From the NCBI RefSeq assembly GCF_002157895.1, contig NZ_CP021377.1, positions 1,674,001-1,738,000 of the forward strand: DNA of 64,000 nucleotides. Direction: 5' to 3'. The notes under the pieces are model-generated. The model saw nothing but the letters and a program-made list of their open reading frames with translations. It was not told the origin of the DNA and ran no database searches. Of the stretch, positions 5,332 to 63,570 are shown piece after piece (the stretch's first letter is position 1; each line of letters starts with the position of its first letter). The DNA comes from Oceanisphaera profunda (GTDB taxonomy: Bacteria > Pseudomonadota > Gammaproteobacteria > Enterobacterales > Aeromonadaceae). Made by a program: the position numbers and the translations under genes.

Positions 5332-5922
5332 CAAAACTCACTCTAGAATCATTGGTCAATAAGGCGAGGCTTGCACTAGTTGCCTAGCAACTGTGGTATA
5401 TCTCTCAATCACTACCTAAAGTAACTTCCCCAAAACCACCCACATAAATCAATTATCTTACTAATATTAAAGATAATTTAACTTTTTGTAGTGGTAAGTA
5501 AGGGCAGCGCCAAGCGCCGTCTTTAAGCCGTCTTCCTGAACTCGATTCAGGATCTCGGGTTAGGTTTTAAAAACTAAAGATCATCTGCTACGGAAGAACG
5601 CTGAACAATAGTGATCTTAATAGCAGCACCAAGCGCCTAGCGTCCGGCACCAAGCTAAAAAAAGAGGGTGTTGGTCTTTCAGCTCGGTGCTTAGCGCTCG
5701 GCGCTGTAATTACTTGCCGCACGTGATCTCTTCCGTGAGTTCCGTGTTCTTGCGTGGCAAAAAATCGCTCTGGCTCTACACTTTTTAGTGTTTGGCCGTT
5801 TGTTAATCATTAGCTTGGCACCATCAATCAACTTTATTCGCTATTATTAAACGTCTTTTTTACTATTCGTTTAACATAGTTTATTTATTACCCACTATTC
5901 ATTAGCCAACAGGAATAGCAAG
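5332..5922. repeat. Intergenic stretch with nested dispersed repeats
   Basis: No gene is seen. At 5533-5551 there is TCCTGAACTCGATTCAGGA, a hairpin of the TCCTGA-loop-TCAGGA family. From about 5586 to 5765 a composite inverted repeat occurs. The outer arms carry CTACGGAAGAACGCTGAACA on the left and TTCCGTGTTCTTGCGTGGCA on the right. The inner arms are heptamer arrays (gcaccaa gcgccta gcgtccg gcaccaa, then gctcggt gcttagc gctcggc). The same composite reappears at 44530-44712. The ilvE promoter must lie in the AT-rich last 120 bp. Confidence 0.75.
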
Positions 5923-6918
5923 ATGTCAGCATTTGGTACCGTATTTGCCCCTGAAATGAGCCTAGCTCGTTACGATCAAGGACAGTGGAGCGCTACAGAG
6001 TTCGTGAGCAGCGATAGTCTCAACCTGCACCCGGGTGCCCATGTGCTGCATTACTCCAGCACCTGTTTTGAAGGTTTGAAAGCCTTTAAGCATGAAGATG
6101 GCTCCATCAATATTTTTCGTATGGAGCAAAACATTGCCCGTTTGATCCAAAGCAGCGAATTATTATCACTGCCGCCAGTGAATGCCGGACAGCTCAAATT
6201 GATGATCCTTGATATTGTGAAGCGATACGCTGCAGACGTGCCTCAGCCTCCTGGATCTATGTATATTCGCCCTACTCATATCGGTACCGAAGCCTCGATT
6301 GGCAAAGCCGCAGCACCGAGTAGTACGTCGCTGCTGTATGTGTTGCTGTCGCCAGTGGGTGATTACTTTGCCAGCGGCAGCAAGCCATTACGCTTGTTAC
6401 TGGCCGACGAAACCCGCTGTGCCTCACACATGGGGATGGTAAAGAGTGGCGGCAACTATGCCAGTGCCTTACAGCCCATCTTAAAAGCTCGCCAATCAGT
6501 GCAGGCCGATCAAGTATTATTCTGCCCAGGGGGCGATGTACAAGAAACCGGAGCGGCTAACTTTTTACTCATCGACGGCAACGAGATCATTACTAAATCC
6601 CTCGATAGCTCGTTTTTACACGGCATTACCCGTCATTCTATTCTGACCTTGGCCCGCGATCGCGGTATGACAGTCTCGGAGCGGGCGTTAAGCGTGGATG
6701 AGTTACTAGAACGCGCACAAAAGCCCGGTGCAGAAGCTGCACTGTCTGGCACCGCTGCAGTATTAACCTCTGTTGGCACCTTAATCCACGATGGTAAAGA
6801 ATATACCGTAGGTGACGGTGAAGCTGGCCCTATCACCAATGCGCTGCGCCAAGCACTCAATGATATTCAGTGGGGCAAAGCCGCCGATACTCACGGCTGG
6901 TTAACCAAAGTCTGTTAA
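5923..6918 (+). CDS. ilvE: Branched-chain amino acid aminotransferase
   Basis: PLP-dependent class IV aminotransferase, 331 residues, catalysing the last step of leucine, isoleucine and valine synthesis and the first step of their breakdown. The BCAT pattern is clear: VLHYSSTCFEGLKAFKHEDG near residue 45, MYIRPTHIGTEASIG, then MVKSGGNYASAL with the PLP lysine at about residue 174, and QVLFCPGGDVQETGAANFLL. It is the eukaryote-like (type II) BCAT subgroup rather than the shorter E. coli form. It stands alone, with repeats upstream and a hairpin downstream. Confidence 0.93.
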   Translation: MSAFGTVFAPEMSLARYDQGQWSATEFVSSDSLNLHPGAHVLHYSSTCFEGLKAFKHEDGSINIFRMEQNIARLIQSSELLSLPPVNAGQLKLMILDIVKRYAADVPQPPGSMYIRPTHIGTEASIGKAAAPSSTSLLYVLLSPVGDYFASGSKPLRLLLADETRCASHMGMVKSGGNYASALQPILKARQSVQADQVLFCPGGDVQETGAANFLLIDGNEIITKSLDSSFLHGITRHSILTLARDRGMTVSERALSVDELLERAQKPGAEAALSGTAAVLTSVGTLIHDGKEYTVGDGEAGPITNALRQALNDIQWGKAADTHGWLTKVC

Positions 6919-6932
6919 TCAACACATATTAT

Positions 6933-6961
6933 GAGCCGAATAAACACCTTGTTCGGCTCCT
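6933..6961 (+). terminator. Putative terminator after ilvE
   Basis: Inverted repeat GAGCCGAA / TTCGGCTC (8 bp, 11-base loop) 15 bp after the stop codon. The T tract is weak (CTTCTGCACTTT), so termination may be inefficient. Confidence 0.5.
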
Positions 6962-7021
6962 TCTGCACTTTAAAAACGAAAGTTTTTGACACAGATTTCA
7001 AGCTACAAGCGGATCTCCAAA

Positions 7022-7064
7022 TAAGCCAAGGTCAGCAAAGCTAGCGCTACTCAGAACTTAATCA
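7022..7064 (+). pseudogene. Second, very short Fic-tail remnant
   Basis: AAGCCAAGGTCAGCAAAGCT followed by AGCGCTACTCAGAACTTA closely matches TAGCCAAGGTCAGCAAGGCC... at about 3566-3600, the stretch that encodes VAKVSKATATQHL in the first Fic remnant. Only about 40 bp is recognisable. It is either a relic of the same gene family or of the same deleted locus. Confidence 0.4.
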
Positions 7065-7197
7065 GCCTACTACCGCGAACACACAATCCACTTTTCCTAG
7101 AGCATGATGAGCAAAGCCTGACGCTGCGCAAAACTGTTATTGCAAACCTCGGTTCAGAGCATGGAAATAAACACATCTCTCTAACTGCTACTGGTTA

Positions 7198-7462
7198 GGG
7201 TCTGTTGACCTTTCGAGATGATTTTTGCAGCAGTTTGTGGAGTCTTTATACAAGGCAGTGCTTATGCCATGTAGTTATTCTCCATAAATAAGTGCTAACG
7301 CAGTAGAAAGGCACCACAAGCGCTGCCCTGCGGGTTCGGCTAAACGCGTTTTTCTCTTTGTTGAGCGGGGTTTTGCTTAGAACGACTAAGCTACAACCCA
7401 CTCGCCGCGATAAAAACGCGTTTAACTCGAACAAAATTTAACCGCGAAAGGTCAACAGACCC
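7198..7462. mobile_element. MITE-like element, 265 bp
   Basis: Perfect 18-bp terminal inverted repeats GGGTCTGTTGACCTTTCG (7198-7215) and reverse complement (7445-7462), flanked on both sides by TA (7196-7197 and 7463-7464), which fits a TA target duplication as made by IS630/mariner-like transposases. Internally there is another inverted pair around AAACGCGTTTTT. The only open frames are short and unconvincing, so it is non-autonomous. The family of the mobilising transposase is not recognised. Confidence 0.8.
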
Positions 7463-7629
7463 TAGGCGTTGCGTAATTTCTGATACCACAACGCCAGGGT
7501 AACCCACCGACTCCTATGAGCTTAATTAGCCCGAGAGTAACCGTACCTTGAATTCAACGGGATAATCATGTAAGATACTGATTATATTAGTTTTTTAAAT
7601 AAATGAGGTTTTAATACTAGGAGAGCATT

Positions 7630-8142
7630 ATCACTATTAATCAAGGTGACCGTATTTACCATCCCGGTTATGGTATCGGTATCGTTAAATCCATTCGTAA
7701 AAAAAGTTTTTCTGGCGAAAACAAAGCCACATTCTTCAAACTCTATTTCAAACGTAATGGCCTCACTTGGCTGGTGCGCGCTAACGATATGCCGAACAAC
7801 ATTCGTAGTGTGATGAGTGCTGGAGAAGCAAAAAAAATTATTCAACATTTAACCAGCTGGCAAGGCAAGCTCAGTGAGCAATGGAAAGTTCGTGCAACGG
7901 CTAATCAGGCGGCTATCGATAAAGGTGATCCATTTGGCTACGCCGAAGTCGTAAAAGGGCTGAGCGTGATGCAAGAACAGCTCCCCCTGAGCGCAACTGA
8001 CCGCAAGCATTTAAACCATAGCATTGATTTTCTGTGTGATGAACTGGCCGATGCTTTGGGTAAGACTCACGACAGAGCACGTCAAATTATTGAAAATGCT
8101 AGATTTTCACAACCCACTGTAATCCACTCCCCCCTTCAATAA
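7630..8142 (+). CDS. CarD-like/TRCF-interaction domain protein with apparent non-AUG start
   Basis: The frame runs from just after a TAG at 7618-7620 to TAA at 8140. The N-terminus TINQGDRIYHPGYGIGIVKS is the CarD/CdnL/TRCF RNA-polymerase-interacting domain (basic Tudor-like fold, residues about 2-60), followed by a helical part. No ATG, GTG or TTG exists upstream of this conserved motif in frame. A strong AGGAG at 7619-7623 sits six bases before ATC at 7630, with alternative ATT codons at 7627 and 7636. The first conventional in-frame codons lie inside the domain and would delete it. Initiation at AUC/AUU, as for infC with AUU, is therefore the best reading; an ATG-to-ATC mutation or base error is the alternative. 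Confidence 0.72.
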   Translation: MTINQGDRIYHPGYGIGIVKSIRKKSFSGENKATFFKLYFKRNGLTWLVRANDMPNNIRSVMSAGEAKKIIQHLTSWQGKLSEQWKVRATANQAAIDKGDPFGYAEVVKGLSVMQEQLPLSATDRKHLNHSIDFLCDELADALGKTHDRARQIIENARFSQPTVIHSPLQ

Positions 8143-8549
8143 GATCTCACATTGCTAAATACGGTCCGCTGAATTGATGGAAGCGTTAGAGCATTCACTG
8201 ATCTTGGATTATTACCACAGTGAGGTTTTAACTCGACGCTTCGGTGGCCAATCAGCCTAGCTTGTGAGCCCCAATATAACATTCCCGACTTTTTCCCCAG
8301 CATCGTCGCCGAAAGATGACTAGCACTGGGCATTTACGCCAATCCATAACGGACGTGCAGCGGATCAAATGAACGTCTGCTGCTCTTAAATTATTTTGAC
8401 ACCCTGAAAACTCTCAGCGAAAAAACATGGTCTAACTTACTTGTTCCCTTATACCGCAGAGCCGTTATCCGTTCGCTAATAAATTTTTGCTACCGCCAAA
8501 ACAGCGAATAATTTATAATTTATAGTCCTAAAAACATCAAGAATTCTAC
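8143..8549. other. Intergenic stretch without a convincing gene
   Basis: About 400 bp. One + frame reads EALEHSLILDYYHSEVLTRR then stops, and a minus frame reads GKKSGMLYWGSQARLIGHRS; both look like possible gene relics but neither matches a family I recognise. The last 80 bp before yqhA are AT-rich and probably hold its promoter. Confidence 0.4.
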
Positions 8550-9074
8550 ATGCTAAAAAAAGTTGAGCAGTCCTTGGAAAGAACTATCTTTAACAGCCGC
8601 TGGATACTGGCTCCTTTTTACCTCGGGTTAGTGCTGGGTATAGTGTTGTTGTTTATCAAGTTCACCCAAGAGCTGTGGCACATGACCACTCATGTGTTTA
8701 GCGCCTCGGAAGCCGATGTTATCGTAGGAATATTGTCGCTGGTCGATATGGCGTTAGTGGCCAGTTTACTGCTTATTATTATCTTTAGCGGCTACGAAAT
8801 TTTCGTGTCAAAGATTGATACCGGCAATCACACAGACCGCCCTGACTGGATGGGAAAAATCGACTTTTCTGGTCTTAAACTAAAAGTGATTGGTGCCATA
8901 GTAGCTATTTCTGCGATTGATCTTTTAAAGTCGTTTATGGATATCCCTCGTGAGATGAATGAGGCTGATGCCGCTAGCCTGATGTGGAAAGTCATCATTC
9001 ACATGACCTTCGTGCTGTCCGGCGTATTCTTTGCCGTTATGGACAAAGTTGCCGGTGAAACTAAAAAGCACTAG
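8550..9074 (+). CDS. yqhA: UPF0114 (YqhA-family) membrane protein
   Basis: 174 residues with hydrophobic segments at about 20-42, 60-85, 110-130 and 142-165. The UPF0114 signature is visible: LERTIFNSRWILAPFYLGLV at the N-terminus, SLVDMALVASLLLIIIFSGYE and later HMTFVLSGVFFAVMDK. The family is a conserved inner-membrane protein of uncertain role, possibly channel-like. It is a single gene on the plus strand; the tail to nemR is about 220 bp of non-coding sequence. Confidence 0.88.
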   Translation: MLKKVEQSLERTIFNSRWILAPFYLGLVLGIVLLFIKFTQELWHMTTHVFSASEADVIVGILSLVDMALVASLLLIIIFSGYEIFVSKIDTGNHTDRPDWMGKIDFSGLKLKVIGAIVAISAIDLLKSFMDIPREMNEADAASLMWKVIIHMTFVLSGVFFAVMDKVAGETKKH

Positions 9075-9263
9075 TGCTTATCAAGGCTCAGCATCGGCAT
9101 TGCATACCCACCACCAAGAGCCCCGCTCTTGGTGGTGGTAAGTCTCCTCACCATTGCTAACTCCCTCATTACCAATTTCCTAATGACCAGCTCCCTGGTG
9201 GGCAGTCCTCCTGCAAACAGTGTTGTTCGCGGATTATCCATCGCGTACATACACAAAAACCAC

Positions 9264-9278
9264 TAGACGACTGGTCTA
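9264..9278. promoter_or_regulatory. NemR-type operator upstream of nemR
   Basis: Palindrome TAGACGACTGGTCTA (half sites TAGAC/GTCTA), 22 bp before the nemR ATG. The surrounding 19 bp ACTAGACGACYGGTCTAAT is repeated before yqhD. It matches the known NemR box logic TAGACC-N4-GGTCTA. Confidence 0.8.
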
Positions 9279-9299
9279 ATAATATATAAAGTGCCGTTT

Positions 9300-9887
9300 A
9301 TGAACGCAAAACATCAAGATACTCGCCAACACTTACTGGATACCGGTCGCGAAATTCTCGCAGCAAAGGGCTTTAGTTCGGTTGGTTTGAGCGCACTGTT
9401 ACAACAGGCAGGCGTGCCCAAGGGCTCCTTCTATCACTACTTTAAGTCGAAGGAGCAATTTGGCGAGGCACTGCTAGAAGATTACTTTGATTTTTATCTG
9501 GCCGAGCTAGAGCAATTATTTAGCCAGCCTAATAAAACGGGCCAACAGCAGTTAATGAGCTATTGGCAGGAGTGGCAGCGCCGCTATTGTGGCCCAAATA
9601 GTCGCAGCGACTGCTTGGTGGTTAAGCTAAGTGCCGAAGTGGCAGACTTATCAGAGCCAATGCGGCTCACGTTAAAAGCCGGCACCGATAAGGTGATTGC
9701 GCGCATTACTCGCTGCATTGAAACAGGCGTGAGTGATGGCTCTTTACAGAGTGCGCAGCCGGCTTTTTTAGCCACCTGCTTGTATCAATTGTGGCTGGGC
9801 GCCAGCCTGTTAACCAAGTTGCACCGTGATAAACAGCATATGGATTTGGCCATGAACATGACGTGCCAGCTGCTCAACACCAAGTAA
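9300..9887 (+). CDS. nemR: TetR-family electrophile/redox-responsive repressor NemR
   Basis: 195 residues. The N-terminal TetR helix-turn-helix (about 5-55) reads SALLQQAGVPKGSFYHYFKS. The C-terminal region contains SDCLVVKLSAEVADLSEPMR, aligned with E. coli NemR, whose Cys106 in the equivalent motif senses quinones, aldehydes and HOCl; the cysteine here is about residue 105. ATG at 9300 is chosen over a GTG three codons upstream because it matches the NemR N-terminus; neither has a clear Shine-Dalgarno. It is preceded by a palindromic operator, so it is presumably autoregulated, and it lies upstream of yqhD and curA, its likely targets. Confidence 0.9.
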   Translation: MNAKHQDTRQHLLDTGREILAAKGFSSVGLSALLQQAGVPKGSFYHYFKSKEQFGEALLEDYFDFYLAELEQLFSQPNKTGQQQLMSYWQEWQRRYCGPNSRSDCLVVKLSAEVADLSEPMRLTLKAGTDKVIARITRCIETGVSDGSLQSAQPAFLATCLYQLWLGASLLTKLHRDKQHMDLAMNMTCQLLNTK

Positions 9888-9901
9888 TTTTAATTGCGAT
9901 A

Positions 9902-9929
9902 AGCTCGCCAATAGTGCGAGCTTTTTATT
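9902..9929 (+). terminator. Terminator after nemR
   Basis: AGCTCGC / GCGAGCT stem (7 bp, 7-base loop) followed by TTTTATTT. It separates nemR from the yqhD-curA unit, which has its own operator. Confidence 0.85.
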
Positions 9930-9954
9930 TACCCTTTTTTATTTACTTAAGCAC

Positions 9955-9969
9955 TAGACGACCGGTCTA
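9955..9969. promoter_or_regulatory. NemR-type operator upstream of yqhD
   Basis: TAGACGACCGGTCTA, differing by one base from the operator at 9264-9278, 27 bp before the yqhD ATG. A TetR-type repressor bound here would control yqhD and curA. Confidence 0.8.
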
Positions 9970-9996
9970 ATCTAAACTCAAACCCAAGGATAACTC

Positions 9997-11154
9997 ATGC
10001 AAGATTTTAGCTTTTACAACCCGACCCGCATTGAATTTGGTGCCGGCAAGATTGCGACTATAGGCCAACTGGTTCCGGCCAAAGTAAAGGTGATGGTGCT
10101 GTTTGGCGGCGAGAGTGCGCTGCGTAACGGCACTATAGATGAAGTGACCACGGCGTTAGGAGATCGCGAAGTACAGTTGTTTGGTGGCATAGAGCCCAAC
10201 CCCAGCTTCGAGACCTTGATGGAAGCCGTGCAGATGGTACGCGAGCAAAACATTGAATACTTACTCGCCGTGGGTGGGGGTTCGGTGATTGACGGTACCA
10301 AGTTTGTGGCGGCAGCCGCACTGTATGAAGGTGATGCTTGGGATATTTTGCTACAAGGCGGCCAGAATATTACTCGCGCCCTGCCCTTTGGCTCGGTATT
10401 AACACTGCCGGCAACTGGTTCAGAAATGAATAAAGGCTCGGTGATTACCCGCAAATCACTGGCCGCTAAACTGCCCTTTATGAGCGAGCATGTGTATCCG
10501 GTGTTTTCAATTTTAGATCCGGTCAAGACCTACACCCTGCCCACCCGCCAAATTGCCAATGGCGTGGTCGATGCCTTTATGCACGTGATTGAGCAGTACC
10601 TAACTTATCCCGCGAACGCGCCGGTGCAAGATCGCTTTGCCGAAGGTTTACTACAAACCTTAATTGAAATTGGCCCCAATGCACTGGCCGAACCAGAAGA
10701 TTACCAAACGCGCGCCAGCTTAATGTGGACCGCCACTTTGGCGCTCAATGGCTTAATTGGCGCCGGTGTACCCCAAGACTGGGCAACCCATATGTTGGGC
10801 CATGAGCTCACCGCCTTGCACGGCTTGGATCACGCCCAAACGCTGGCCATTATTTTGCCGGAGATGCTGCGCCAGCGTAAAGCCACCAAACTGGGTAAGT
10901 TGGTGCAATACGCCGAGCGCGTGTGGCATATCCGAGACGGTAGCGATGATGAAAAAGCCGAAGCCGCCATTGAGCATACCCGTAACTTCTTCGAGTCGGT
11001 GGGCGTAAAAACCCGCCTAAGCGACTATGAGCTGGGTGCCGAGCATATCGATGCCATCATCAATAGCTTAGAGGCCCACGGCATGGTGGCGTTAGGCGAG
11101 CACGGTGATGTGACGCCAGAGCATTGTCGCCAAATCCTATTAGCCAGCCTGTAA
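9997..11154 (+). CDS. yqhD: NADPH-dependent aldehyde reductase YqhD (iron-containing alcohol dehydrogenase)
   Basis: 385 residues, nearly the length of E. coli YqhD. It reduces short-chain, reactive and lipid-peroxide-derived aldehydes with NADPH in the cytoplasm. Seen: cofactor segment LLAVGGGSVIDGTKFVAAAA (about 90-107), LTLPATGSEMN, and metal-ligand segments NGVVDAFMHVIEQYLTYPA and MLGHELTALHGLDHAQTLAI. FGGIEPNPSFETLM is also YqhD-like. It is the first gene after the second NemR-type operator and is followed by curA after 36 bp, so the two form a carbonyl detoxification unit. Confidence 0.94.
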   Translation: MQDFSFYNPTRIEFGAGKIATIGQLVPAKVKVMVLFGGESALRNGTIDEVTTALGDREVQLFGGIEPNPSFETLMEAVQMVREQNIEYLLAVGGGSVIDGTKFVAAAALYEGDAWDILLQGGQNITRALPFGSVLTLPATGSEMNKGSVITRKSLAAKLPFMSEHVYPVFSILDPVKTYTLPTRQIANGVVDAFMHVIEQYLTYPANAPVQDRFAEGLLQTLIEIGPNALAEPEDYQTRASLMWTATLALNGLIGAGVPQDWATHMLGHELTALHGLDHAQTLAIILPEMLRQRKATKLGKLVQYAERVWHIRDGSDDEKAEAAIEHTRNFFESVGVKTRLSDYELGAEHIDAIINSLEAHGMVALGEHGDVTPEHCRQILLASL

Positions 11155-11190
11155 TTTGCCTTGTAGTCAACTAAGAGCGAAGGAGTAATT

Positions 11191-12234: not shown

Positions 12235-12499
12235 ATACTAAACGGGTGGCAGCTAAGGCTGCCCCCTGTAACAACAGACTAACCACTCCCGATATTGATC
12301 CGTCATAAATAGCTGCCGCACCGTATCTGAAGACCATCCCCCTCCGCCGACTGTTCCATAATGATTCATGCGACTCCGTCGCAACTCCACGATAAAAACA
12401 TTGACCCTGCTGAGTTATTGAACGATGTTAGTCAATCAGACCGAGTTTCAATAAGGTCCGCGCTAGCACTTGCCGGTGCTTACATTTAGGAGTTCACGG

Positions 12500-33192: not shown

Positions 33193-33290
33193 GTGAAGAG
33201 TGATGAGTGAGGAGTGAGCAGTAAAATATGGATTCCGAAAGAGAGGGGGCATGGGGGGAGGCTTTACGCCTCACCCTTTCCCCCTCACGG
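33193..33290. repeat. Heptamer arrays of the GTGAAGA type, inverted pair
   Basis: Left: gtgaaga gtgatga gtgagga gtgagca (33193-33220), exact 7-base register. Right, opposite orientation: ctcaccc tttcccc ctcacgg (about 33272-33292), ending next to the monooxygenase stop codon. Confidence 0.75.
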
Positions 33291-35432: not shown

Positions 35433-35499
35433 GGGCTTTTACTACCTCTAAAAAGTCAGAGGCGAAGGCAGATGGGCAGCGTTGCCGAGAGCCGAATGG

Positions 35500-35585
35500 C
35501 TGACATCCCTTCGCCAGTATGAACTGGATCAGGTTCGACGGGTGTTATCTCAGCCAGGCAGATGTGCTGCCAGACACCCCGTGTC
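35500..35585 (-). promoter_or_regulatory. TPP (THI-box) riboswitch upstream of SDR-monooxygenase operon
   Basis: Read on the minus strand: GGGGTGTC, then CTGGCTGAGATAACACCCG, then GAACCTGATCCAGTTCATAC, TGGCGAAGGGA. CTGAGA (complement of 35548-35553), ACCTGATC and the GCGAAGGGA end are the invariant THI-box elements. A further hairpin (AGCCATTCGGCT) lies between the aptamer and the SDR start and may be the expression platform. Confidence 0.95.
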
Positions 35586-35611
35586 ACGAGCTAGACCATA
35601 GCATAAATAAA

Positions 35612-35711
35612 GTGAAGAGTGAGGCGTAAGGAGTGAGATGAAAAACCTAACCGTAAGTCTGCAGACTCACAGTTGTTGTCACCCTAACACCTTACTCTTC
35701 ACCCCTCACGT
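35612..35711. repeat. Heptamer arrays of the GTGAAGA type, inverted pair upstream of pyrC
   Basis: Left: gtgaaga gtgaggc gtaagga gtgagat (35612-35639). Right: ccttact cttcacc cctcacg (about 35690-35710), the reverse complement pattern. The pair can fold as a long hairpin and yields an in-frame extension upstream of the true pyrC start. Confidence 0.78.
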
Positions 35712-36825: not shown

Positions 36826-36830
36826 CTTAT

Positions 36831-36879
36831 CGCCCAGCGCCCAGCGCCCAGCGCCCAGCGCCCAGCGCCCAGCGCCCAG
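36831..36879. repeat. Perfect heptamer tandem repeat, seven copies of CGCCCAG
   Basis: Seven uninterrupted 7-bp copies between pyrC and its terminator. It is the cleanest example in the window of the 7-base-period repeats. Confidence 0.97.
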
Positions 36880-36888
36880 CGAAATAAT

Positions 36889-37104: not shown

Positions 37105-37272
37105 CACCGTCATTCTGACGTATGTCAGGAGCTTGGTTTGGAAATATCATCTTGTTTGATCACTTTATGCCGCTACGCGCCATCGGCCAGCTAAAGCGGC
37201 CTCTACCTCCCACCTCACGTAAGTCCAATATTTGACAAGCATCACATTTATTCTTACTCTCATCGTCATTCC

Positions 37273-37380
37273 TGGGGGAGCCTAAGGTGCAGAGATTGCA
37301 CCCGAATCGGCTGAGATTCCGCTACTTGCAGCGGTAACCCTTAGAACCTGATCCGGATAATGCCGGCGAAGGGAAGGAAC
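37273..37380 (+). promoter_or_regulatory. TPP (THI-box) riboswitch upstream of the symporter gene
   Basis: GGGGGAGCCTAAGGTG, CGGCTGAGATTCCGC (CTGAGA at 37311), AACCCTTAGAACCTGATCCG and GATAATGCCGGCGAAGGGAA are the full THI-box consensus on the plus strand. It ends about 110 bp before the symporter ATG. Confidence 0.96.
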
Positions 37381-37490
37381 AAGTCTTACACTCCCTCTCT
37401 GCGCCCGTATTCTCCGGCATACTATCGCCCATATAACCGTCAATGACTGACGATGTTTATCATGTTTGCCTTTAGGCAAAGGGAGAATTC

Positions 37491-39467: not shown

Positions 39468-39468
39468 G

Positions 39469-41576: not shown

Positions 41577-44438
41577 ATGGGCTCTCGTTACACTGTATTA
41601 CTAACGGCACTGCGCAATATATTACCCGCAGCGCGTATTATTACCGATCCTGCGCTGTGCTTAGCCCTGGGCACAGACGCCAGTTTTTATCGACTGTTAC
41701 CTAAAATGGTGTTGCGTTTAAGCAGCACCGAAGAAGTCGTTCAGGTACTTCAGCTATGTAGCGAGCACGCCATTCATTGCACCTTTCGCGCGGCAGGCAC
41801 CAGTTTGTCGGGCCAAGCCATTTCCGACTCGGTACTGATCACCTTAACCGATGACTGGCGCGGCCACACCATGAGTGAAAACGCGACCATAATTAAGTTA
41901 CAGCCAGGCGTAATAGGTGCGGACGCCAATAAATATCTGGCGCCGTTCGGGCGCAAGATAGGCCCAGATCCCGCGTCTATTAATAGCTGTAAAATTGGCG
42001 GCATTGCCGCTAATAATGCGTCTGGTATGTGCTGTGGCACTGCCCAAAACTCTTATCGCACACTAGCTGGAATCAGCCTAGTACTGGCCGATGGCACCTA
42101 TCTTGATACCAGAGACTCCTTAAGCAAGGCGCGCTTTGCTCAGTTACAGCCGCAGTTAATCAGCGGCTTACAAGCATTGCATCAGCAAGTGTTAGCCAAC
42201 CCAGCCTTAACTGAGCGTATTCTTCATAAGTACCGATTAAAGAACACCACCGGCTACAGTCTAAATGCCTTACTAGATTTTGCCGATCCCTTCGATATGC
42301 TGGCCCACTTGATGATTGGCTCCGAAGGCACGCTGGGCTTTATTAATGACATTAGTTACCACACGGTACCCGATCATGCCTTTAAGGCCTCTTGCCTATT
42401 GGTGTATACAGATATAGAAAGTACTTGCTTGGCGGTCACCGAATTAGCCAACACGAATGTGGCGGCAGTAGAGATAATGGACGGTCGCGCCCTGCGCTCC
42501 ATTGCCAATCTGCCCGGCATGCCCGACTTTATTCAGACCTTAGATTTAGAAGCAGCGGCGCTATTAATAGAAGTGCATGGCGCTACTCAAGCCGAGTTAA
42601 CGCAAAACTGTGCCCAAGCAATGGCCGCCATTAAGAACTTCACTCTGCTTGAGCAGGTCGCGTTTACGCAAGATACTAAGCTGTGCGCTAATCTGTGGGC
42701 CATGCGCAAAGGCATGTTTCCTGCAGTGGGAGCAATACGTGAAACCGGTACTACTGTGGTTATTGAAGACGTAGCGTTTCACGTGAAACATTTAGCGGCG
42801 GCAGTGCGTAAGTTAACCGCTCTCTTCGAACAGTTTGGTTATCACGAAGCCATTATCTTCGGTCACGCTTTGGCCGGTAACCTGCACTTTGTGTTTACCC
42901 AAGGCTTCGATAGCGAGACAGAGCGCCAGCGTTACGGTAATTTTATGGCGGCCGTTACTCAGTTGGTGGCTGTGGAATATCAAGGTTCACTCAAAGCTGA
43001 GCATGGCACGGGCCGCAATATGGCACCCTTCGTGGAGTTGGAATGGGGACAAGACGGCTACCAATTAGTGCAGCAGATAAAAGCGCTGTTTGATCCGCAA
43101 GGTATTCTTAACCCCGGGGTGATTGTTAACTCAGATAACCAAGCCCACCTTAAAAATCTTAAACCCCTACCCGCCGCCGATCCGCTGGTTGATAAATGTA
43201 TCGAGTGTGGCTTTTGTGAGGCAGTCTGCCCGTCAAAGAATTTAAGCCTCACGCCGCGCCAACGCATCGTCTTGTATCGTGAGCTACAACGTCGCCAAGC
43301 TAATCACGAAGTAATCGACGACAGCTTAGCCCAGGTATTTGAGTATCACGGGATTGATACTTGCGCGGCCACCGGTTTATGCGAACAGCGCTGCCCAGTG
43401 GGTATTAATACCGGCGACATGATGCGCAAGCTACGCACCGCCCGCTATCAGAAATTTCAGCCCATTGCGCGTTGGACGGCTCAACACTTTGCCGGCACCA
43501 CTAAGGCAGTAGGCATAGGTTTGAATGCGGCTAATCTGGCCCGCAAGTTAGTAGGCAACCAAGCGATGACTCGCGTAAATAGCAGCTTGCGCAGTGTTAG
43601 TCGTAACAAGCTACCGATGTGGTTTCCTGAAATACCGGCGGCGAACTCGTATCAGCTGCAGAAAGAATTAACCAAATCTGAGCAAAGGCAGTTTCAAAGG
43701 CTACCGACTGGCAGCGATAAAGTGGTGTATTTCCCCTCTTGTGCCAGCCGCACACTCGGCCAATCTTCGCACGCCACCGACCCTCGCTCCTTAACTGAAA
43801 TCACCTTATCGGTATTAACCAAGGCAGGATTTGAGGTCATCGTACCCGCAGCGCTGAATAGTCTGTGTTGCGGCATGCCCTATCAAAGCAAAGGCATGTT
43901 TGAGCTGGCAGCGGAGAAAATACAGGAGCTGGAAGCACAGTTATGGCAGGTATCAGAACAAGGTAAATGGCCGATACTGATGGACACCAGCCCTTGTGCC
44001 AAGTTGAGCCAAGATAGCTTCGGTGAACAGAAGAATGGCTTTACTCAAGACCTAGCCGTTTATGAGCCGGTTAGCTTTATCATGGAGCATGCCTTGGAGC
44101 GACTACAACTCTCGCCCCTTGATGAGACTGTGATGCTGCACATTACCTGTAGCAGTCAGCGGATGGGGCTGGCAGACAAGATGTTAGCGTTAGCTAAGCT
44201 TTGTGCGACGTCGGTAATAGTGCCAGAGCATATCAGCTGCTGCGGTTTTGCTGGTGATAAAGGTTTTACCCTACCCGAGCTTAACGCCTCGGCATTGGCC
44301 ACCTTAAAGCAGCAAGTACCGTCTGGCTGCACACGAGGTGTCAGTAACAGCCGCACCTGTGAACTCGGATTAAGCCATCACAGCGGTATCAACTATGAGT
44401 CCATTCTTTACTTAGTAGATGAAGCGGCTAGGCCGTGA
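41577..44438 (+). CDS. FAD and 4Fe-4S D-lactate dehydrogenase, Dld-II type
   Basis: About 953 residues: FAD-binding type-4 domain (about 40-270) with FRAAGTSLSGQAISDSVLI and KIGGIAANNASGMCCGT, FAD-linked oxidase C-domain to about 520, two 4Fe-4S motifs CIECGFCEAVCPS (from C541) and CAATGLCEQRCPVG, and a CCG-type heterodisulfide-like C-terminus (NSLCCGMPYQSKG, HISCCGFAGDKG). This is the Shewanella Dld-II layout; related proteins include YdiJ (D-2-hydroxyglutarate dehydrogenase), so the substrate is D-lactate or another D-2-hydroxyacid. ATG at 41577 is preferred to TTG one codon upstream. A parS-like palindrome is embedded at 42775-42790. Confidence 0.87.
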   Translation: MGSRYTVLLTALRNILPAARIITDPALCLALGTDASFYRLLPKMVLRLSSTEEVVQVLQLCSEHAIHCTFRAAGTSLSGQAISDSVLITLTDDWRGHTMSENATIIKLQPGVIGADANKYLAPFGRKIGPDPASINSCKIGGIAANNASGMCCGTAQNSYRTLAGISLVLADGTYLDTRDSLSKARFAQLQPQLISGLQALHQQVLANPALTERILHKYRLKNTTGYSLNALLDFADPFDMLAHLMIGSEGTLGFINDISYHTVPDHAFKASCLLVYTDIESTCLAVTELANTNVAAVEIMDGRALRSIANLPGMPDFIQTLDLEAAALLIEVHGATQAELTQNCAQAMAAIKNFTLLEQVAFTQDTKLCANLWAMRKGMFPAVGAIRETGTTVVIEDVAFHVKHLAAAVRKLTALFEQFGYHEAIIFGHALAGNLHFVFTQGFDSETERQRYGNFMAAVTQLVAVEYQGSLKAEHGTGRNMAPFVELEWGQDGYQLVQQIKALFDPQGILNPGVIVNSDNQAHLKNLKPLPAADPLVDKCIECGFCEAVCPSKNLSLTPRQRIVLYRELQRRQANHEVIDDSLAQVFEYHGIDTCAATGLCEQRCPVGINTGDMMRKLRTARYQKFQPIARWTAQHFAGTTKAVGIGLNAANLARKLVGNQAMTRVNSSLRSVSRNKLPMWFPEIPAANSYQLQKELTKSEQRQFQRLPTGSDKVVYFPSCASRTLGQSSHATDPRSLTEITLSVLTKAGFEVIVPAALNSLCCGMPYQSKGMFELAAEKIQELEAQLWQVSEQGKWPILMDTSPCAKLSQDSFGEQKNGFTQDLAVYEPVSFIMEHALERLQLSPLDETVMLHITCSSQRMGLADKMLALAKLCATSVIVPEHISCCGFAGDKGFTLPELNASALATLKQQVPSGCTRGVSNSRTCELGLSHHSGINYESILYLVDEAARP
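42775..42790. other. parS-like centromere site inside the dehydrogenase gene
   Basis: CGTTTCACGTGAAACA, 15 of 16 matches to the ParB target TGTTTCACGTGAAACA and fully palindromic over the central 14 bases. It lies about 11 kb from parAB and about 7 kb from oriC. Confidence 0.88.
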
Positions 44439-45185
44439 GGGGTATTGGGTGAGGCGTACACCATAAGAGCAGGTAAGCTTGAAGCAGAGATCGAGAAGAA
44501 GTCTCTAAAATCTAGAGCCAGAGCTATTTATGCCACGGAAGAACACGGAACGCACAGACGCAGTTCACGTGCGACAAGTATTAACAGCGCCGAGCGCTAA
44601 GCACCAAGCGCCGAGCTAAAATATAAACACCATCTTTTGTTAAGCTTGGCGCTAGGTGCTGCTGTTAAGATCACTATTGTTCCGTGTTCTTCTGCTCTTT
44701 TCCGTGGCAAATAATCCCTAGTCTTGAGTCTTTAAGGTCGTAGAACGAGATCCTGAAACTTCGTCATGCCGGACTTGATCCGGTATCAGGATGACGGCAT
44801 AAAGATACCTGATTACCCACAAAGCTCAGCCATGTTTCAGAGAGCTCGGTACCAATGAATTCAATAGGTCACAGGGAGGTGCCGTATCTTCGGCAAAGAA
44901 CATGAGGCTCAATTTAGTATTTTGACCTTGTAGAGGCCCGTCTCTTCGGCGAAGAGGACTTCGGCCCGGTTTGGTGTTTTGTTTAAATCAAAACCTCAGT
45001 AACAGCCAGCAGAGCTGGCCTGCCGAATAAATTTGGCAGCTACAAAGAACAAACCGAAACAGGGTGCATTATGGCTGAGGTTCATACGTAATCAGGTAAA
45101 GATAAACAGCGTCTTTTATTTAGCTTGGTGCTTGGTGCTGCTTTTAAAGCTTGTTCCCTTCACTCTTTACCCTTCACTCCTCACC
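44436..45185. repeat. Large composite repeat region between convergent genes
   Basis: No gene is credible in this stretch of more than 700 bp. In order: gtgaggg gtattgg gtgaggc (44436-44456); outer arm GCCACGGAAGAACACGGAAC (44532-44551); heptamer array gcgccga gcgctaa gcaccaa gcgccga (44587-44614); its inverted partner gcttggc gctaggt gctgctg (44644-44664); outer arm TTCCGTGTTCTTCTGCTCTT and CCGTGGCAA (about 44680-44710); hairpin ATCCTGAAAC...ATCAGGATGACGGCAT (44750-44801); gcttggt gcttggt gctgctt (45123-45143); cttcact ctttacc cttcact cctcacc (45158-45185), which runs into the stop codon of the next gene. Confidence 0.8.
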
Positions 45186-47074: not shown

Positions 47075-47155
47075 GCGCCTAGCACCAAGCGCCGAGCTAA
47101 AAGAAGAGATAGGTCTTTGTTTTCCTTGGTGCTCGGCGCCGGGCGCTTAGCGCTC
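47075..47155. repeat. Heptamer hairpin of the GCGCCAA/GCTTGGC type
   Basis: gcgccta gcaccaa gcgccga gct (47075-47098), then 26 bp spacer, then ccttggt gctcggc gccgggc gcttagc gct (47124-47154) as the inverted partner. It lies between divergent genes, immediately upstream of the RidA-like gene. Confidence 0.85.
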
Positions 47156-47181: not shown

Positions 47182-47538
47182 ATGACTATAGAACGCCAAC
47201 AAACTAGCGAGCGTATGAGCCGCATCGTCAAACACAATGGCATCGTCTATTTGTGTGGCCAAGTGCCTAAAGACGCCAGTAAAGATATTACCGAACAAAC
47301 GGTCACCATGCTGGATAAAGTGGACGAATTACTCTTAGTAGCAGGCTCGAGCCGCGAACACATGTTGACGGTCACTATATTTTTAAAATCCATGAAGGAT
47401 TTTGCTGCTATGAATGCGGTGTGGGATGCTTGGGTACCAAAAGGCCACGCCCCTGCTCGCACTTGTGTAGAAGGTGCCATGGCACGCGAAGAGTTACTGG
47501 TAGAAATAGCAGTAACGGCAGCAATACGTGAAGCGTGA
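47182..47538 (+). CDS. RidA/YjgF-family protein
   Basis: 118 residues, YjgF/YER057c/UK114 family; subfamily resembling YoaB-type proteins. RidA members hydrolyse reactive enamine/imine intermediates. Visible: [40 protein letters not shown] and [20 protein letters not shown], in which the conserved Arg and Glu are retained. GGAG precedes ATG 47182. The last codons (CGT GAA GCG TGA) are themselves the first unit of a GTGAAGC heptamer array, so the C-terminus has been shaped by the repeat. Confidence 0.92.
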
Positions 47539-47556
47539 AGCGTGAAGCGTGAAGCA
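47528..47556 (+). repeat. Four GTGAAGC heptamers overlapping a stop codon
   Basis: Four perfect tandem copies starting within the last codons of the RidA-like gene; the stop codon TGA belongs to the second unit. Confidence 0.95.
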
Positions 47557-47639: not shown

Positions 47640-47755
47640 AGGGCAAAATCAAGATCCTGACTTTCGTCAGGATGACGGCCTAAGAACGCCGGCTCTAGCT
47701 TGGCGCTCGGTGCTATCTCTTCCTCTTCACCCTTTACCCCTCACTCTTCACAGCA
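47640..47755. repeat. Repeat cluster downstream of gdhA
   Basis: Hairpin ATCCTGACTTTCGTCAGGAT followed by GACGGC (47654-47679), gcttggc gctcggt gct (47698-47714), and cttcacc ctttacc cctcact cttcaca (47725-47752). All three families of the window occur side by side here. Confidence 0.85.
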
Positions 47756-56354: not shown

Positions 56355-56403
56355 TGCCTCGGTCTGTCAATCAGTCTGTTAACTATTTAAAAGGAGAGTT
56401 GCG

Positions 56404-56873: not shown

Positions 56874-56886
56874 GGGACATAGAGCT

Positions 56887-57417: not shown

Positions 57418-57431
57418 TTGGGGAATAGAGC

Positions 57432-58973
57432 ATGCAACTGAATTCAACTGAAATTGCCGAGCTGATTAAACAGCGTATCGAGCAATTCAACGTTGTCAGT
57501 GAAGCACGAAACGAAGGTACTATCGTCTCTGTAAGTGACGGTATTATCCGTGTTCACGGCCTTGCTGATATCATGCAAGGCGAAATGATCGAACTGCCAG
57601 GCGGCTTGTACGCTTTGGCATTGAACTTAGAGCGTGACTCCGTAGGTGCCGTGGTAATGGGTCCGTATACGGATCTGGCCGAAGGCATGAAGGTACGTTC
57701 TACTGGTCGTATCTTGGAAGTGCCAGTGGGTCGTAACCTGCTGGGTCGTGTGGTTAACACCTTGGGTGAGCCAATCGACGGTAAAGGCGCCATTGTTGCC
57801 GATACCTTCTCTCCAGTAGAAATGATTGCACCAGGCGTAATCGACCGTCAATCGGTAGATGAGCCACTGCAAACTGGCTATAAAGCCGTTGATGCCATGA
57901 TCCCTGTAGGTCGTGGTCAGCGTGAGCTGATCATCGGTGACCGTCAGGTTGGTAAAACTGCGTTAGCAGTTGATGCCATCATCAACCAGAAAGACTCTGG
58001 CGTTAAGTGTGTGTACGTGGCCATCGGCCAAAAAGCGTCCACCATTTCTAACGTAGTACGTAAGCTGGAAGAGCATGGCGCACTGGCCAACACTATCGTA
58101 GTAGTGGCTTCTGCTTCTGAGTCTGCAGCACTGCAGTACTTGGCGCCTTACTCCGGTTGCGCCATGGGTGAATTCTTCCGTGACCGCGGTGAAGATGCAC
58201 TGATCGTATACGATGACCTGTCTAAACAGGCCGTTGCTTACCGTCAGATCTCACTGTTGCTGCGTCGTCCGCCAGGTCGTGAAGCTTACCCAGGTGACGT
58301 TTTCTACTTGCACTCCCGTCTGCTAGAGCGTGCCTCTCGCGTATCGGTTGAGTATGTAGAACGTTTCACCAAGGGCGAAGTGACAGGCAAAACCGGTTCT
58401 TTGACCGCGTTGCCTATCATCGAAACTCAAGCCGGTGACGTATCTGCGTTTGTACCGACTAACGTAATTTCCATCACAGATGGTCAGATTTTCTTGACCA
58501 CAGAGCTGTTTAACTCAGGCATTCGCCCTGCTGTTGATCCAGGTATCTCTGTATCTCGTGTTGGTGGTGCTGCACAGACCAAACTTATCAAGAAAGTGTC
58601 TGGTGGTATTCGTACCGCTTTGGCTCAGTACCGCGAATTAGCAGCTTTTGCTCAGTTCTCTTCTGACCTCGATGCAGCTACGCGCAAGCAGCTGGATCAC
58701 GGCCAGAAAGTAACCGAGCTAATGAAGCAAAAGCAATATCGCCCAATGTCTGTTGCAGAACAGGGTTTGGTGTTGTTTGCCGCTGAAAACGGTTATTTGG
58801 ACGATGTTGAGTTAAACCTCATCACTACGTTCGAAGCTGCCCTGCTCGCTTATGCCGATTCAGAACATGCTGCCACCATGGCAGACATCAACGAGAAAGG
58901 TGACTACAACAAAGACGTTGTGGCTCAGCTGACTGCGTTGCTGGATAGCTTCAAGGCTACCCAGTCCTGGTAA
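57432..58973 (+). CDS. atpA: ATP synthase F1 subunit alpha
   Basis: 513 residues, same length as E. coli. Walker [11 protein letters not shown] (about 169-178), [20 protein letters not shown], and the alpha/beta signature region [20 protein letters not shown]. Non-catalytic nucleotide-binding subunit. Confidence 0.98.
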
Positions 58974-59015
58974 CCATGTGGCAGCGTTTGCTGCCACTTG
59001 AATTGGAGAAGCGAC

Positions 59016-61299
<2,284 letters not shown>

Positions 61300-61317
61300 G
61301 CCGCGAAGGAGAACCTG

Positions 61318-61734
61318 ATGGCCGATTTTAGCTTTCATCTCGAGATTGTTAGTGCCGAAGAGCGTTTATACTCTGGTACTGTGCAAGCGGTGACGGTTTC
61401 CGGCTCTGAGGGTGAATTGGGGATCCGTTACGGACATGCCCCCTTGTTGACGTCGATTCGTCCAGGCTTGGTGCAATACGTCACTGTGTCTGGTCAACAA
61501 GAAGTTCTGTATATTTCTGGCGGTATGCTGGAAGTGCAGAACAGCAGTGTCAAAGTATTAGCCGACACTGCTATTCGCGCCGAAGATCTGGATCTAGCCA
61601 AGGCAGAAGAAGCCAAACGAGCGGCAGAAGCTAAGTTGCAAAGTTCCTCTCATGATGTGAACTATGCCGAAGCGGCCGCCGATCTGGCTCGCGCCATGGC
61701 GCAGCTGCGCGTGTTGCAGTTGCTGAAAAGATAA
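61318..61734 (+). CDS. atpC: ATP synthase F1 subunit epsilon
   Basis: 138 residues. [20 protein letters not shown] at the N-terminus, [20 protein letters not shown] and [20 protein letters not shown] form the beta-barrel, followed by the two-helix C-terminal inhibitory domain. Last gene of the operon, ended by a strong terminator. Confidence 0.97.
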
Positions 61735-61754
61735 GGTGCTTGTTACTTGCACCT

Positions 61755-61786
61755 AAAAAAGCGACCTTAGGGTCGCTTTTTTTTTA
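61755..61786 (+). terminator. Terminator of the atp operon
   Basis: AAAAAAGCGACC-TTAG-GGTCGCTTTTTTTTT, 20 bp after the atpC stop. Confidence 0.96.
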
Positions 61787-61802
61787 TTAAATACGGCAAA
61801 GA

Positions 61803-61875
61803 GTTAAGTGTAAAGGGTGAAGAGGTACACAATACCTAAGGCTCTCCCCTTTACTCTTCACTCTTAACGTTTCAC
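61803..61875. repeat. Heptamer inverted pair between atpC and glmU
   Basis: gttaagt gtaaagg gtgaaga (61803-61823) and the opposite array ctttact cttcact cttaacg (about 61850-61870). They can pair into a hairpin of about 70 bases just before glmU. Confidence 0.82.
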
Positions 61876-61898
61876 ATAAAATATTAACGGGAAATCCA

Positions 61899-63257
61899 AT
61901 GACAACACAGGCTGTGATCTTAGCAGCGGGTAAAGGTACCCGCATGCGTTCTTCTTTACCCAAGGTGCTGCATCCGGTGGCGCATCGCCCTATGGTCAGC
62001 CATGTAATAGCGGCGGCACAGGCCTGTGCGGTAGACGGTATTCACTTGGTGTATGGCCATGGTGCTGAGCAATTGAAAGCCCGCATTACTGAGCCTAATT
62101 TAAGCTGGGTGCATCAGGCAGAGCAGCTAGGCACCGGCCATGCAGTAGCCGTAGCGCTACCTGAAATCAATGATAGCGATGACGTATTAGTGCTCTATGG
62201 TGATACCCCCTTATTACAGCCAGATACCTTAAAAGCGCTACTGGCGGCTAAGCCCGTTGGCGGCGTAGGTCTGCTCACCGTGAAGTTAGATAACCCCAGC
62301 GGTTATGGTCGTATCGTGCGTGAACATGGCAAGGTAGTGGGCATTGTCGAGCAAAAAGATGCCAATGCCGAGCAGTTGTTGATTAACGAAGTGAACACCG
62401 GTGTGTTGGTTGCCGAAGCTAAGCTGTTAAAGCGCTGGTTAGGGGCGTTAAATAACAATAATGCTCAAGGTGAATACTACCTGACCGATATCTTCGCCAT
62501 GGCCCATGCTGACGGCTGTGAGATTGCTACTGTGCACCCAGCCTCCACTGCTGAGGTGGAAGGTGCCAACGATCGCGTGCAATTAGCAGGATTAGAGCGC
62601 GCCTATCAAAAAATGCAGGCGGAGCGCTTAATGCGAGATGGCGTCACTTTATTAGATCCGGCGCGCTTCGACCTACGCGGCGAGCTAACAGTAGGCGAAG
62701 AAGTCACCATTGATGTAAATGTGATCATCGAAGGTAAGGTAACCCTAGGTAACCGCGTAGTTATTGGTGCTGGCGCCATTCTTAAAGACTGTGTGATTGG
62801 TGATGATGCCATCGTTAAGCCCTACTCCATTATCGAGCAAGCCGAACTAGGGTGCGCCAGCTCTGCCGGCCCCTTCGCGCGTTTACGCCCAGGTGCGGTA
62901 CTGGGCGAAGATGCCCATGTGGGTAACTTCGTCGAGATCAAGAAAACCCGCTTAGGCAAAGGCTCTAAGGCCGGTCACTTAAGCTATTTAGGCGATGCCG
63001 AGATTGGCGACGGTGTGAATATTGGCGCCGGTACCATTACCTGTAACTACGATGGTGTGAACAAGTTTCAAACCATCATCGAAGATGGCGTGTTCGTCGG
63101 CTCCGATACCCAGTTAGTGGCCCCAGTACGCATCGGTAAAAACGCCACCTTGGGTGCCGGCTCTACGGTGACCAAAGACGTCGCCGAAGATGAACTGGTG
63201 ATCACCCGCGTCCCCCAGCGTCATATTAAGAACTGGCCTCGCCCTACTAAAAAGTAG
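61899..63257 (+). CDS. glmU: Bifunctional UDP-N-acetylglucosamine pyrophosphorylase/glucosamine-1-phosphate N-acetyltransferase
   Basis: 452 residues. N-terminal uridyltransferase: [20 protein letters not shown] (about 5-24), [22 protein letters not shown]-terminal left-handed beta-helix (about 250-450) with hexapeptide repeats and the acetyltransferase segments [40 protein letters not shown] and [19 protein letters not shown]. Makes UDP-GlcNAc for peptidoglycan and LPS. It lies after the atp operon as in E. coli. Confidence 0.97.
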
Positions 63258-63293
63258 CCATACGCTTTACGCGATACGCTGTAAGTTAAACAT

Positions 63294-63332
63294 AAAAACG
63301 CGGCTGTGAGACTCACTGCCGCGTTTCTTTTT
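63294..63332 (+). terminator. Terminator of glmU
   Basis: AAACGCGGC ... GCCGCGTTT stem with 13-base loop followed by CTTTTT, 37 bp after the stop. Confidence 0.87.
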
Positions 63333-63361
63333 ACCTACGACAAGTGATCGCCAATCAGTGA

Positions 63362-63570
63362 AAACCTAAGAGCGAGATCCTGACGTGCAACCGGATGACG
63401 GCATAAGCAGCAGATCCGACCCGCTGGTTTGCCCTTGCGAATAAAAATTCCTTTCAGATCTGATCCCTATTTTTCAGTGGTTTTTGCGTCTTCCGTTGCA
63501 AAAATAGGTCTTGGCCCGATTTTAGATGTTTTTCTTTAGCTAGGCGCTTGGTGCTCGGCGCTTAGCGCGG
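63362..63570. repeat. Repeat cluster after glmU
   Basis: GAGATCCTGACGTGCAACCG then GATGACGGCATAAG (63374-63406, hairpin family), TTTTTCAGTGGTTTTTGCG with TTCTTCCGTTGCAAAAA (about 63471-63505, CCACGGAA-related), and gcttggt gctcggc gcttagc (63546-63566). Confidence 0.78.

Follow-up and report, generated by a model that had tools for sequence, protein, structure and literature searches.

Inward-facing heptamer arms at gene ends of Oceanisphaera profunda as possible ends of dispersed palindromic elements

What are the runs of seven-base units that recur between the genes of Oceanisphaera profunda, and how did they come to lie where they do? The question is raised by a 64,000-nucleotide stretch of its genome, referred to here as the window (G000:C1:1674001-1738000, where G000 labels the genome, a single contig of 3.51 Mb). 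A sequence-only reading of the window had described heptamer-periodic intergenic repeats of at least two sequence families, whose units drift while the seven-base step is kept. We found that these repeats form short "arms" that are periodic at seven bases, keep a set orientation and position at gene ends, differ between species, carry insertions and deletions (indels) in multiples of seven, and resemble one another across their inner edge more often than across their outer one. Tentatively, and at close to but short of an even chance, we consider the arms to be the termini of palindromic elements scattered through intergenic DNA, with whole heptamers also being gained and lost.

Heptamer periodicity and the structure of the arms

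The intergenic DNA of the window (42 gaps, 10,692 bp) has a seven-base periodicity. Gene calls for the 463-kb sample below and for the later counts of gaps, positions, gene ends and indels come from our own codon-usage open reading frame (ORF) caller, which missed or misplaced some genes. Scored over lags 2 to 28 against 60 dinucleotide shuffles, autocorrelation reaches z = 5.3 at lag 7, 4.8 at lag 14 and 3.2 at lag 21, with all remaining lags at or below 3.9 (the highest being lag 3 at 3.9 and lag 12 at 3.0); lag 7 is not prominent when the whole window, coding DNA included, is scored. In a 463-kb sample made up of the window and twenty evenly spaced genome stretches, local lag-7 arrays number 21 in intergenic against 3 in coding DNA, and lag-14 arrays 25 against 4. 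Local arrays at lags 4–6, 8–11 and 13 number 0–5 in intergenic DNA, and those at lag 12 number 5 in intergenic and 14 in coding DNA. Genome-wide, the pattern of family 1 (F1; three units, at most 3 mismatches) has 134 matches and that of family 2 (F2; at most 1 mismatch) 317, against 0 for either reversed pattern, where overlapping positions are each counted and the numbers are not those of arrays. The repeats are thus both intergenic and genome-wide, as had been claimed, and by eye the heptamer register is clear at 16 of the 17 positions listed by the sequence-only reading. At 44436 one of the three units departs from the consensus. The CGCCCAG array described as perfect at 36831 is indeed so, with 7.3 perfect copies at 36831-36881 according to Tandem Repeats Finder (TRF); since CGCCCAG is a rotation of GCGCCCA, we assigned this array to F2. 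An assembly artefact is unlikely, as F1 is present in 21 of the 23 genomes of the genus.

The unit is GTGARGN in F1 and GCRCCNA in F2, both degenerate and both found throughout the genome. Among 201 F1 units, positions 1, 2, 4 and 6 are almost invariant, position 3 is mainly G or A, position 5 is A or G, and position 7 is free. A third group, NTAMGCN (F3/F4), comprises GTACGCN and GTAAGCN together with the GTCAGCN variants of F4. It is common in two relatives, G059 and G050, and also occurs in G000, for example behind glmU; the definition of F3 is loose, and part of the F3 assignments in G000 may be chance. Behind ridA of G050 stand four copies of GCTAGAA. This third group goes beyond the earlier description of the window, as do the inward-facing inverted pairs, the anchoring at stop codons and the family switches in a close relative described below.

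Across 543 kb of the genome we scored 47 F1 and 29 F2 arms. Four units make up 32 of the 47 F1 arms, and three or four units make up 27 of the 29 F2 arms. Four-unit F1 arms have A as the third base of their third unit in 19 of 32 cases, compared with 21 of 96 other units; for F2 the figures are 9 of 15 and 8 of 45. The F1 bias was repeated on 45 arms (p = 2e-5). Three successive identical units occur in just 4 of 74 F1 arms. When the homogeneous arrays (4 of 47 F1, 1 of 29 F2) are excluded, identical neighbouring units number 2 in F1 and 3 in F2, against 6.3 and 6.7 in position-kept shuffles, although the exclusion in itself somewhat lowers the count. With these arrays included, F1 has 15 identical neighbours against 8.8 (p = 0.022), consistent with recent slippage in these few arrays, and F2 has 8 against 8.3. 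The likeness of neighbouring units that marks a slippage microsatellite is therefore absent from the heterogeneous majority of arms, and slippage alone fails because neighbours outside the few homogeneous arrays are less alike than in the shuffles.

Neighbouring arms tend to point towards each other. In 165 orthologous gaps, the order is plus then minus for 18 of 20 neighbours in G000 and 20 of 26 in G059; pooled over both species, this gives 38 inward pairs, 8 in the same direction and none outward. A larger G000 sample of neighbours at most 600 bp apart holds 23 inward pairs among 32, and 2 outward ones. Paired arms agree in family in 16 of 20 cases in G059 (p = 0.0004) and in 18 of 23 cases in the larger G000 sample. 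Reversed gaps of the syntenic set, used as a control, hold 3 arms in total against 63 in the forward gaps.

The similarity between arms is also polar. In G000 it extends over the inner edge of 62 arms out of 143 and over the outer edge of 17; in G059 the numbers are 19 and 6 of 65 arms. Some of these matches join both arms of one element. In G050, copies of about 135 bp that include a shared interior are 90–97% identical, two of the three lying in one gap. Together with the inward polarity, the four-unit size and the presence or absence of arms between species, this inner-edge similarity gives the arms the appearance of termini of dispersed palindromic elements.

Position at gene ends and divergence between two species

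Arms facing the 3′ end of a gene lie directly behind it. Of these, 63 of 82 start within 15 bp of the stop codon (median 5 bp), where even placement in the gaps would give 11.9; among arms facing a 5′ end, 0 of 43 start within that distance, and the median is 89 bp. Arm density is 2.23 per kb in convergent gaps, 0.90 in tandem gaps and 0.80 in divergent gaps. Over two genomes, an arm begins at a distance of under 30 bp behind the stop at 74 of 638 gene ends; in 25 of the 74 the array begins before the stop codon is complete.

The two flanks of an arm differ in character. Information content outside the arm is close to zero apart from the final bases (..GCA before F2, ..AGC before F3). On the inner side it is higher, with the patterns GCTAAA.AA.AA for F2, AAA.A.AAA for F3 and G.A.AA for F1; the inner edge leads into an A-rich stretch and often into a terminator hairpin. 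This inner flank resembles the A-rich run that leads into a terminator. Eight stretches were folded as RNA, six of them with close pairs of arms. Five of the six fold with z between -3.1 and -5.5, and the sixth (33193..33288), in which the left arm is mostly unpaired, with z = -2.3.

The genome of G059 is collinear with G000 over most of 415 kb, with 252 orthologues at 96.7% amino-acid identity and a divergence of 15.7% at 4-fold sites. The 165 gaps comprise 109 that are armless in both genomes, 26 with the same family, 10 with different families and 20 occupied in one genome only, the last being 20 of 56 occupied gaps. When the 252 gene 3′ ends are scored for an arm within 30 bp of the stop, 197 have one in neither species, 15 have the same family, 14 a different family and 26 an arm in one genome only. 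At the different-family ends, the coding sequences are similar up to or near the stop, after which one species has F1 or F2 and the other F3 or F4; the reverse direction, with F3 in G000 and F1 in G059, was seen in one case. At some of these ends the terminator has been kept, most plainly at 1844788 of G000, where the terminator stretch is identical in G059. The 60 bp on the inner side of the arm outscore 95% of mismatched pairs at just 3 of the 14 switched ends.

Arms shared by the two species, counting only pairs at least 60% identical, diverge by 10.9% in F1 (14 pairs), 10.1% in F2 (7) and 8.3% in F3 (5), values close to that of 4-fold sites or a little lower. The idea that the arms are hypervariable was dropped on this ground. 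Indel lengths are multiples of seven in 7 of 15 cases in arms against 6 of 55 elsewhere (p = 0.004); examples between kept flanks are 14 bp at 1882661 of G000, 14 bp and 7 bp in F2 arms, and 21 bp in an F1 arm. Such lengths show that whole heptamers were later gained or lost. The earlier proposal of active expansion survives as this copy-number change between species, but plain slippage does not stand as its main account. F1 consensus positions changed in 16 of 204 cases, against 23 of 153 for variable positions (p = 0.024), and those of F2 and F3 also change less (p = 0.18 and 0.22), in a test biased by its requirement that an arm be recognised in both genomes. Given this bias and a low p value in F1 alone, strong purifying selection on consensus positions was rejected. 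Hairpin-templated copying between arms of the same gap was rejected as well, since they show no excess similarity.

Origin of the arms

Under the reading that we tentatively favour, an arm would be the end of a mobile or copied element, made of about four degenerate heptamers (28 bp) of one family and pointing inwards, with two arms bracketing a gap or part of it. At 3′ ends the outer edge would lie about 5 bp behind the stop, or the first units would supply the stop, and the inner edge would run into the A-rich stretch, often with a terminator hairpin. By copying or transposition, such elements may have become dispersed across the genome, and they would be tolerated where neither coding sequence nor 5′ signals are harmed. 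After this spread the arms would decay at about the neutral rate, while whole heptamers were gained or lost, probably by slippage between units. Miniature inverted-repeat transposable elements (MITEs) likewise have terminal inverted repeats, a defined outer edge (crossed here in only 17 of the 143 G000 arms) and dispersed copies.

Several observations weigh against such elements. Similarity also extends outward from 6 of 28 G050 arms, paired arms of the syntenic G000 set agree in family in only 9 of 18 cases (p = 0.27), and arms of the same gap are no more similar than arms of different gaps (F1 p = 0.53, F2 p = 0.46). By eye, no target-site duplication was seen at the loci viewed, without a systematic test, and no transposase is tied to the arms. 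A mobile element alone does not obviously explain anchoring to the stop codon at the scale of base pairs. Furthermore, at 1844788, at 1813659 and in the ridA–gdhA gap of G000, the family has switched around the same or nearly the same terminator. This is not what the insertion of a whole element gives, and the favoured reading does not account for an exchange of families around kept terminators.

Families that differ around conserved terminators, and outer edges at the last codons of genes, would be expected if the spacer between stop and terminator were grown, shortened or replaced by heptamers in place. Such rewriting would work through seven-base slippage and the copying of units from other arms, by ectopic or hairpin-templated conversion, and its borders would be set by selection on the stop codon, terminator and promoter. 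We regard this as a possibility to be taken seriously, without thinking it probable. It agrees with the seven-multiple indels between conserved flanks and with the existence of a few homogeneous arrays, but not with the unlike neighbouring units of heterogeneous arms, the lack of any special likeness between same-gap arms, or the positional grammar and interior that arms share across loci; moreover, 8 of the 15 arm indels are not multiples of seven. A selected function appears doubtful. The arms would then be RNA or DNA signals at gene ends, whether as longer stems flanking bidirectional terminators or as spacers of fixed length that give the last ribosome room to clear the terminator, and selection would maintain their heptamers. 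The strong folding of close pairs in five of six stretches, the A-tracts and terminators that come after the arms, and the slower change at consensus positions, measured with the recognition bias described above, would fit this. However, the 197 of 252 gene ends with no arm within 30 bp of the stop in either species, the 23 of 125 arms that lie in divergent gaps without any 3′ end, and the many ends that have no arm or another family in the close relative speak against it.

It is very unlikely that the arms are ordinary microsatellites, that is, random seven-base slippage tracts tolerated between genes. Perfect arrays do occur, such as the one at 36831 and a GTGAGGA array of about 18 units in the genome G311, and two papers describe heptamers as the most frequent of the long simple repeats in the majority of bacteria examined (PMC4679880, PMC4692102), but polar inverted pairing, four-unit size, stop anchoring, the small number of families and the low neighbour identity outside homogeneous arrays are all contrary to it. 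We give almost no credence to copying by a reverse transcriptase, or to spread of the repetitive extragenic palindrome (REP) type by a REP-associated tyrosine transposase (RAYT). G000 has three Y1_Tnp genes, and a heptamer array lies no more than about 600 bp from two of them; against this, genomes of the genus without a Y1_Tnp match still have F1 (55 matches in G049, 32 in G052), and the two RAYT genes viewed, of the three, are surrounded by GTAG-type repeats. For reverse transcription, no RVT_1 match was found in G000, and 13 of the 23 genomes of the genus have one.

Distribution and relation to known systems

The arms and arrays located in the window are collected in Table 1. At gathering thresholds, the only known RNA families in the window are represented by two thiamine pyrophosphate (TPP) riboswitches, which flank pyrC (37264-37391 on the plus strand and 35489-35591 on the minus strand). 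They precede a sodium:solute symporter gene, and an SDR gene followed by an FMN-dependent monooxygenase gene; these riboswitch-led genes beside pyrC are candidates for thiamine-precursor uptake or salvage.

Table 1. Heptamer arms and arrays of the window, numbered from its first base; "new" marks arms beyond those of the sequence-only reading
Feature	Position	Strand	Remarks
F2 arm, 4 units	5626..5653	+	left half of inverted pair
F2 arm, 3 units	5684..5704	-	right half; pair with 5626..5653 folds as RNA, z -3.07
F1 arm, 5 units	33193..33227	+	scored arm
F1 arm, 4 units	33261..33288	-	new; inward partner of 33193..33227; region z -2.32
F1 arm, 4 units	35612..35639	+	gap ahead of pyrC
F1 arm, 4 units	35682..35709	-	new; partner of 35612..35639; pair folds, z -5.26
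F2 array, CGCCCAG units	36830..36881	+	directly behind pyrC stop, then terminator hairpin; among the few homogeneous arrays
F1 arm, degenerate	44435..44455	+	provides stop codon of ydiJ-like gene
F2 arm, 4 units	44587..44614	+	left half of close inverted pair; folds, z -5.52
F2 arm	44644..44661	-	right half of pair with 44587..44614
F2 arm, ~2 units	45123..45138	-	inward of F1 arm 45157..45184
F1 arm, 4 units	45157..45184	-	overlaps end of minus-strand reductase gene
F2 arm, 3 units	47075..47095	+	element common to G000 and G059
F2 arm, 4 units	47126..47153	-	partner of 47075..47095; pair folds, z -4.04
F1 arm, 4 identical GTGAAGC units	47528..47555	+	provides stop of ridA-like gene; F3 there in G059
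F2 arm, ~2 units	47698..47713	-	–
F1 arm, 4 units	47724..47751	-	9 bp behind gdhA stop; F3 there in G059
F1 arm, 4 units	61796..61823	+	behind atp operon terminator
F1 arm, 4 units	61848..61875	-	new; partner of 61796..61823; pair folds, z -4.12
F3 arm, ATACGCT TTACGCG ATACGCT GTAAGTT	63260..63287	+	new; directly behind glmU stop
F2 arm, 4 units	63541..63568	-	behind stop of next minus-strand gene

Other repeats are present in the region. A dispersed element of about 290 bp with the ends CTGATTA / TAATCAG occupies 44808-45099 of the window. G059 has a copy of it near window position ~6985, a site that is empty in G000, and AAAGTTTT stands on both sides of that insertion, which looks like an 8-bp target duplication. 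At about 7200-7470 lies a stretch of some 270–290 bp with the inverted ends GGGTCTGTTGACCTTTCG / CGAAAGGTCAACAGACCC, which is not at the same place in G059. Nested palindromes at 44532-44710 and 5590-5765 have outer arms CCACGGAA/TTCCGTGG with F2 arms inside, and related CACGGAA palindromes recur in several gaps of G000 and G059. Hairpin repeats GCCGTCATCCTGACG...CGTCAGGATCTCG are scattered in gaps of the same two genomes, for example at 44760, 47650 and 63370 of the window. An ISAs1-family transposase gene (4039-5136) lies upstream of an ilvE-like gene. Elsewhere, RAYT-like genes are found at L111:6171-6503, L115:13901-14233 and G000:C1:997656-997868, and two kinds of GTAG-type repeat (GTAGCCGGC... 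and GTAGGCGAACG...) surround those at L111 and L115.

The MnmG protein of G000 shares 96% identity with the one from Candidatus Oceanisphaera merdipullorum, in keeping with a member of the Aeromonadaceae close to Oceanisphaera. Within the genus, the 21 genomes with F1 were counted at one mismatch, a search that gave single matches in 2 of the 52 other genomes of the family. The reversed pattern gives fewer matches in the genus, though not none (at most 52, in G046, against 330 for F1 itself), and some F1 counts are low and near the control, such as 7 against 3 in G060. Only G000 (317 matches), G059 (122) and G050 (87) are rich in F2; G039, G040 and G056 have 13–18 matches, and the count elsewhere is 0–5. 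By eye, the gap between atpC and glmU is armless at the Zobellella/Oceanimonas loci L033, L034 and L040, and holds an F1 element in G000 and L039, another F1 element in L032 and F2 in L031.

Exact F1 occurs more widely, in 15 of the 273 other genomes of a class sample of 274 that includes G000. Five of the 15 have 9–56 matches, where one long array yields many matches, and some controls give matches because a homogeneous array read backwards looks much like itself. At nine loci from five genomes of four families, 9 of 12 arrays begin no more than 22 bp from the end of a same-sense long open frame; these ends are those of the longest open frames near each array, the count has no random control, and F1 units themselves contain stops. 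The recurrence of GTGARGN behind stops in unrelated families of the class suggests a sequence-specific mechanism rather than chance slippage. That an unrecognised gammaproteobacterial process writes degenerate four-heptamer arms behind stops, mirrors them around terminators and can swap their families is, in our judgement, rather unlikely. The other MnmG loci (L041-L110, 1.38 Mb) show no excess at lag 7, with a count of 7 against 2–8 at other lags; one array at the Thalassotalea locus L084 is F3/F4-like in look.

No literature on heptamer repeats of Oceanisphaera was found in open-licence PMC papers. The arms can be compared with two kinds of known repeat. REP and bacterial interspersed mosaic elements (BIMEs) with RAYT, as well as MITEs, are palindromic elements dispersed in intergenic DNA, often lying at the 3′ ends of genes, and the REP/RAYT system is defined by GTAG/GGAG-footed hairpins around a RAYT gene. 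In contrast, the ends described here are built of heptamers, and no GTAG/GGAG foot was seen. Among heptamer arrays, to which a likeness in form had been proposed and is upheld here, the short tandemly repeated repetitive (STRR) sequences of Calothrix and Anabaena are intergenic and degenerate. We know of no accepted reason for the prevalence of heptamers among long bacterial simple repeats. Three Calothrix heptanucleotides are mentioned, and the Nostoc heptamer is given as GGGGA(C/T)T, in PMC4692102. The TAACTGA heptamers of the marine Beggiatoaceae are also intergenic, in 169 sets with a patchy occurrence across distant taxa, and their forward repeats place stops in all three frames (PMC4679880). 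Unlike the arms, however, they are described as one invariant unit, mainly directly upstream of starts, with one indirect repeat (PMC4679880).

Xanthomonas, with its GGGAATC heptamers, offers the closest precedent. These (GGGANTN)n repeats are heterogeneous and mostly intergenic, with 186 and 183 per genome; the majority have four units and lie on average 28 nt from the end of the 5′ ORF, two convergent sites occur in 70 and 75 cases, few are found between divergent genes, and most lie between the same genes in two species (PMC4692102). The arms share with this Xanthomonas and Nostoc type, so far as described, the intergenic 7-bp period, the prevalence of four units, the position at ORF 3′ ends and the convergent inverted pairs. 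The Xanthomonas repeats formed a G-quadruplex in vitro, and the authors of that work found no role (PMC4692102). Four G-tracts (at least 3 G, loops of 1–7) occur in just 1 of 144 G000 arms, the 36831 array, and in 0 of 67 G059 arms, so that the G-quadruplex account is not transferable, although homogeneous GTGAGGG arrays of relatives would contain G-tracts. Compared with Xanthomonas as described, the units here have other sequences, several families coexist in one genome, arms are anchored about 5 bp behind the stop, a given gene end may carry different families in different species, and the arms run into an A-rich stretch and often a terminator. Since several unrelated unit sequences agree in size, polarity and place at gene ends, it may be the 7-bp step and the stop anchoring that matter, rather than the unit sequence. 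With two syntenic species whose families differ at corresponding gene ends, the mechanism can be tested directly.

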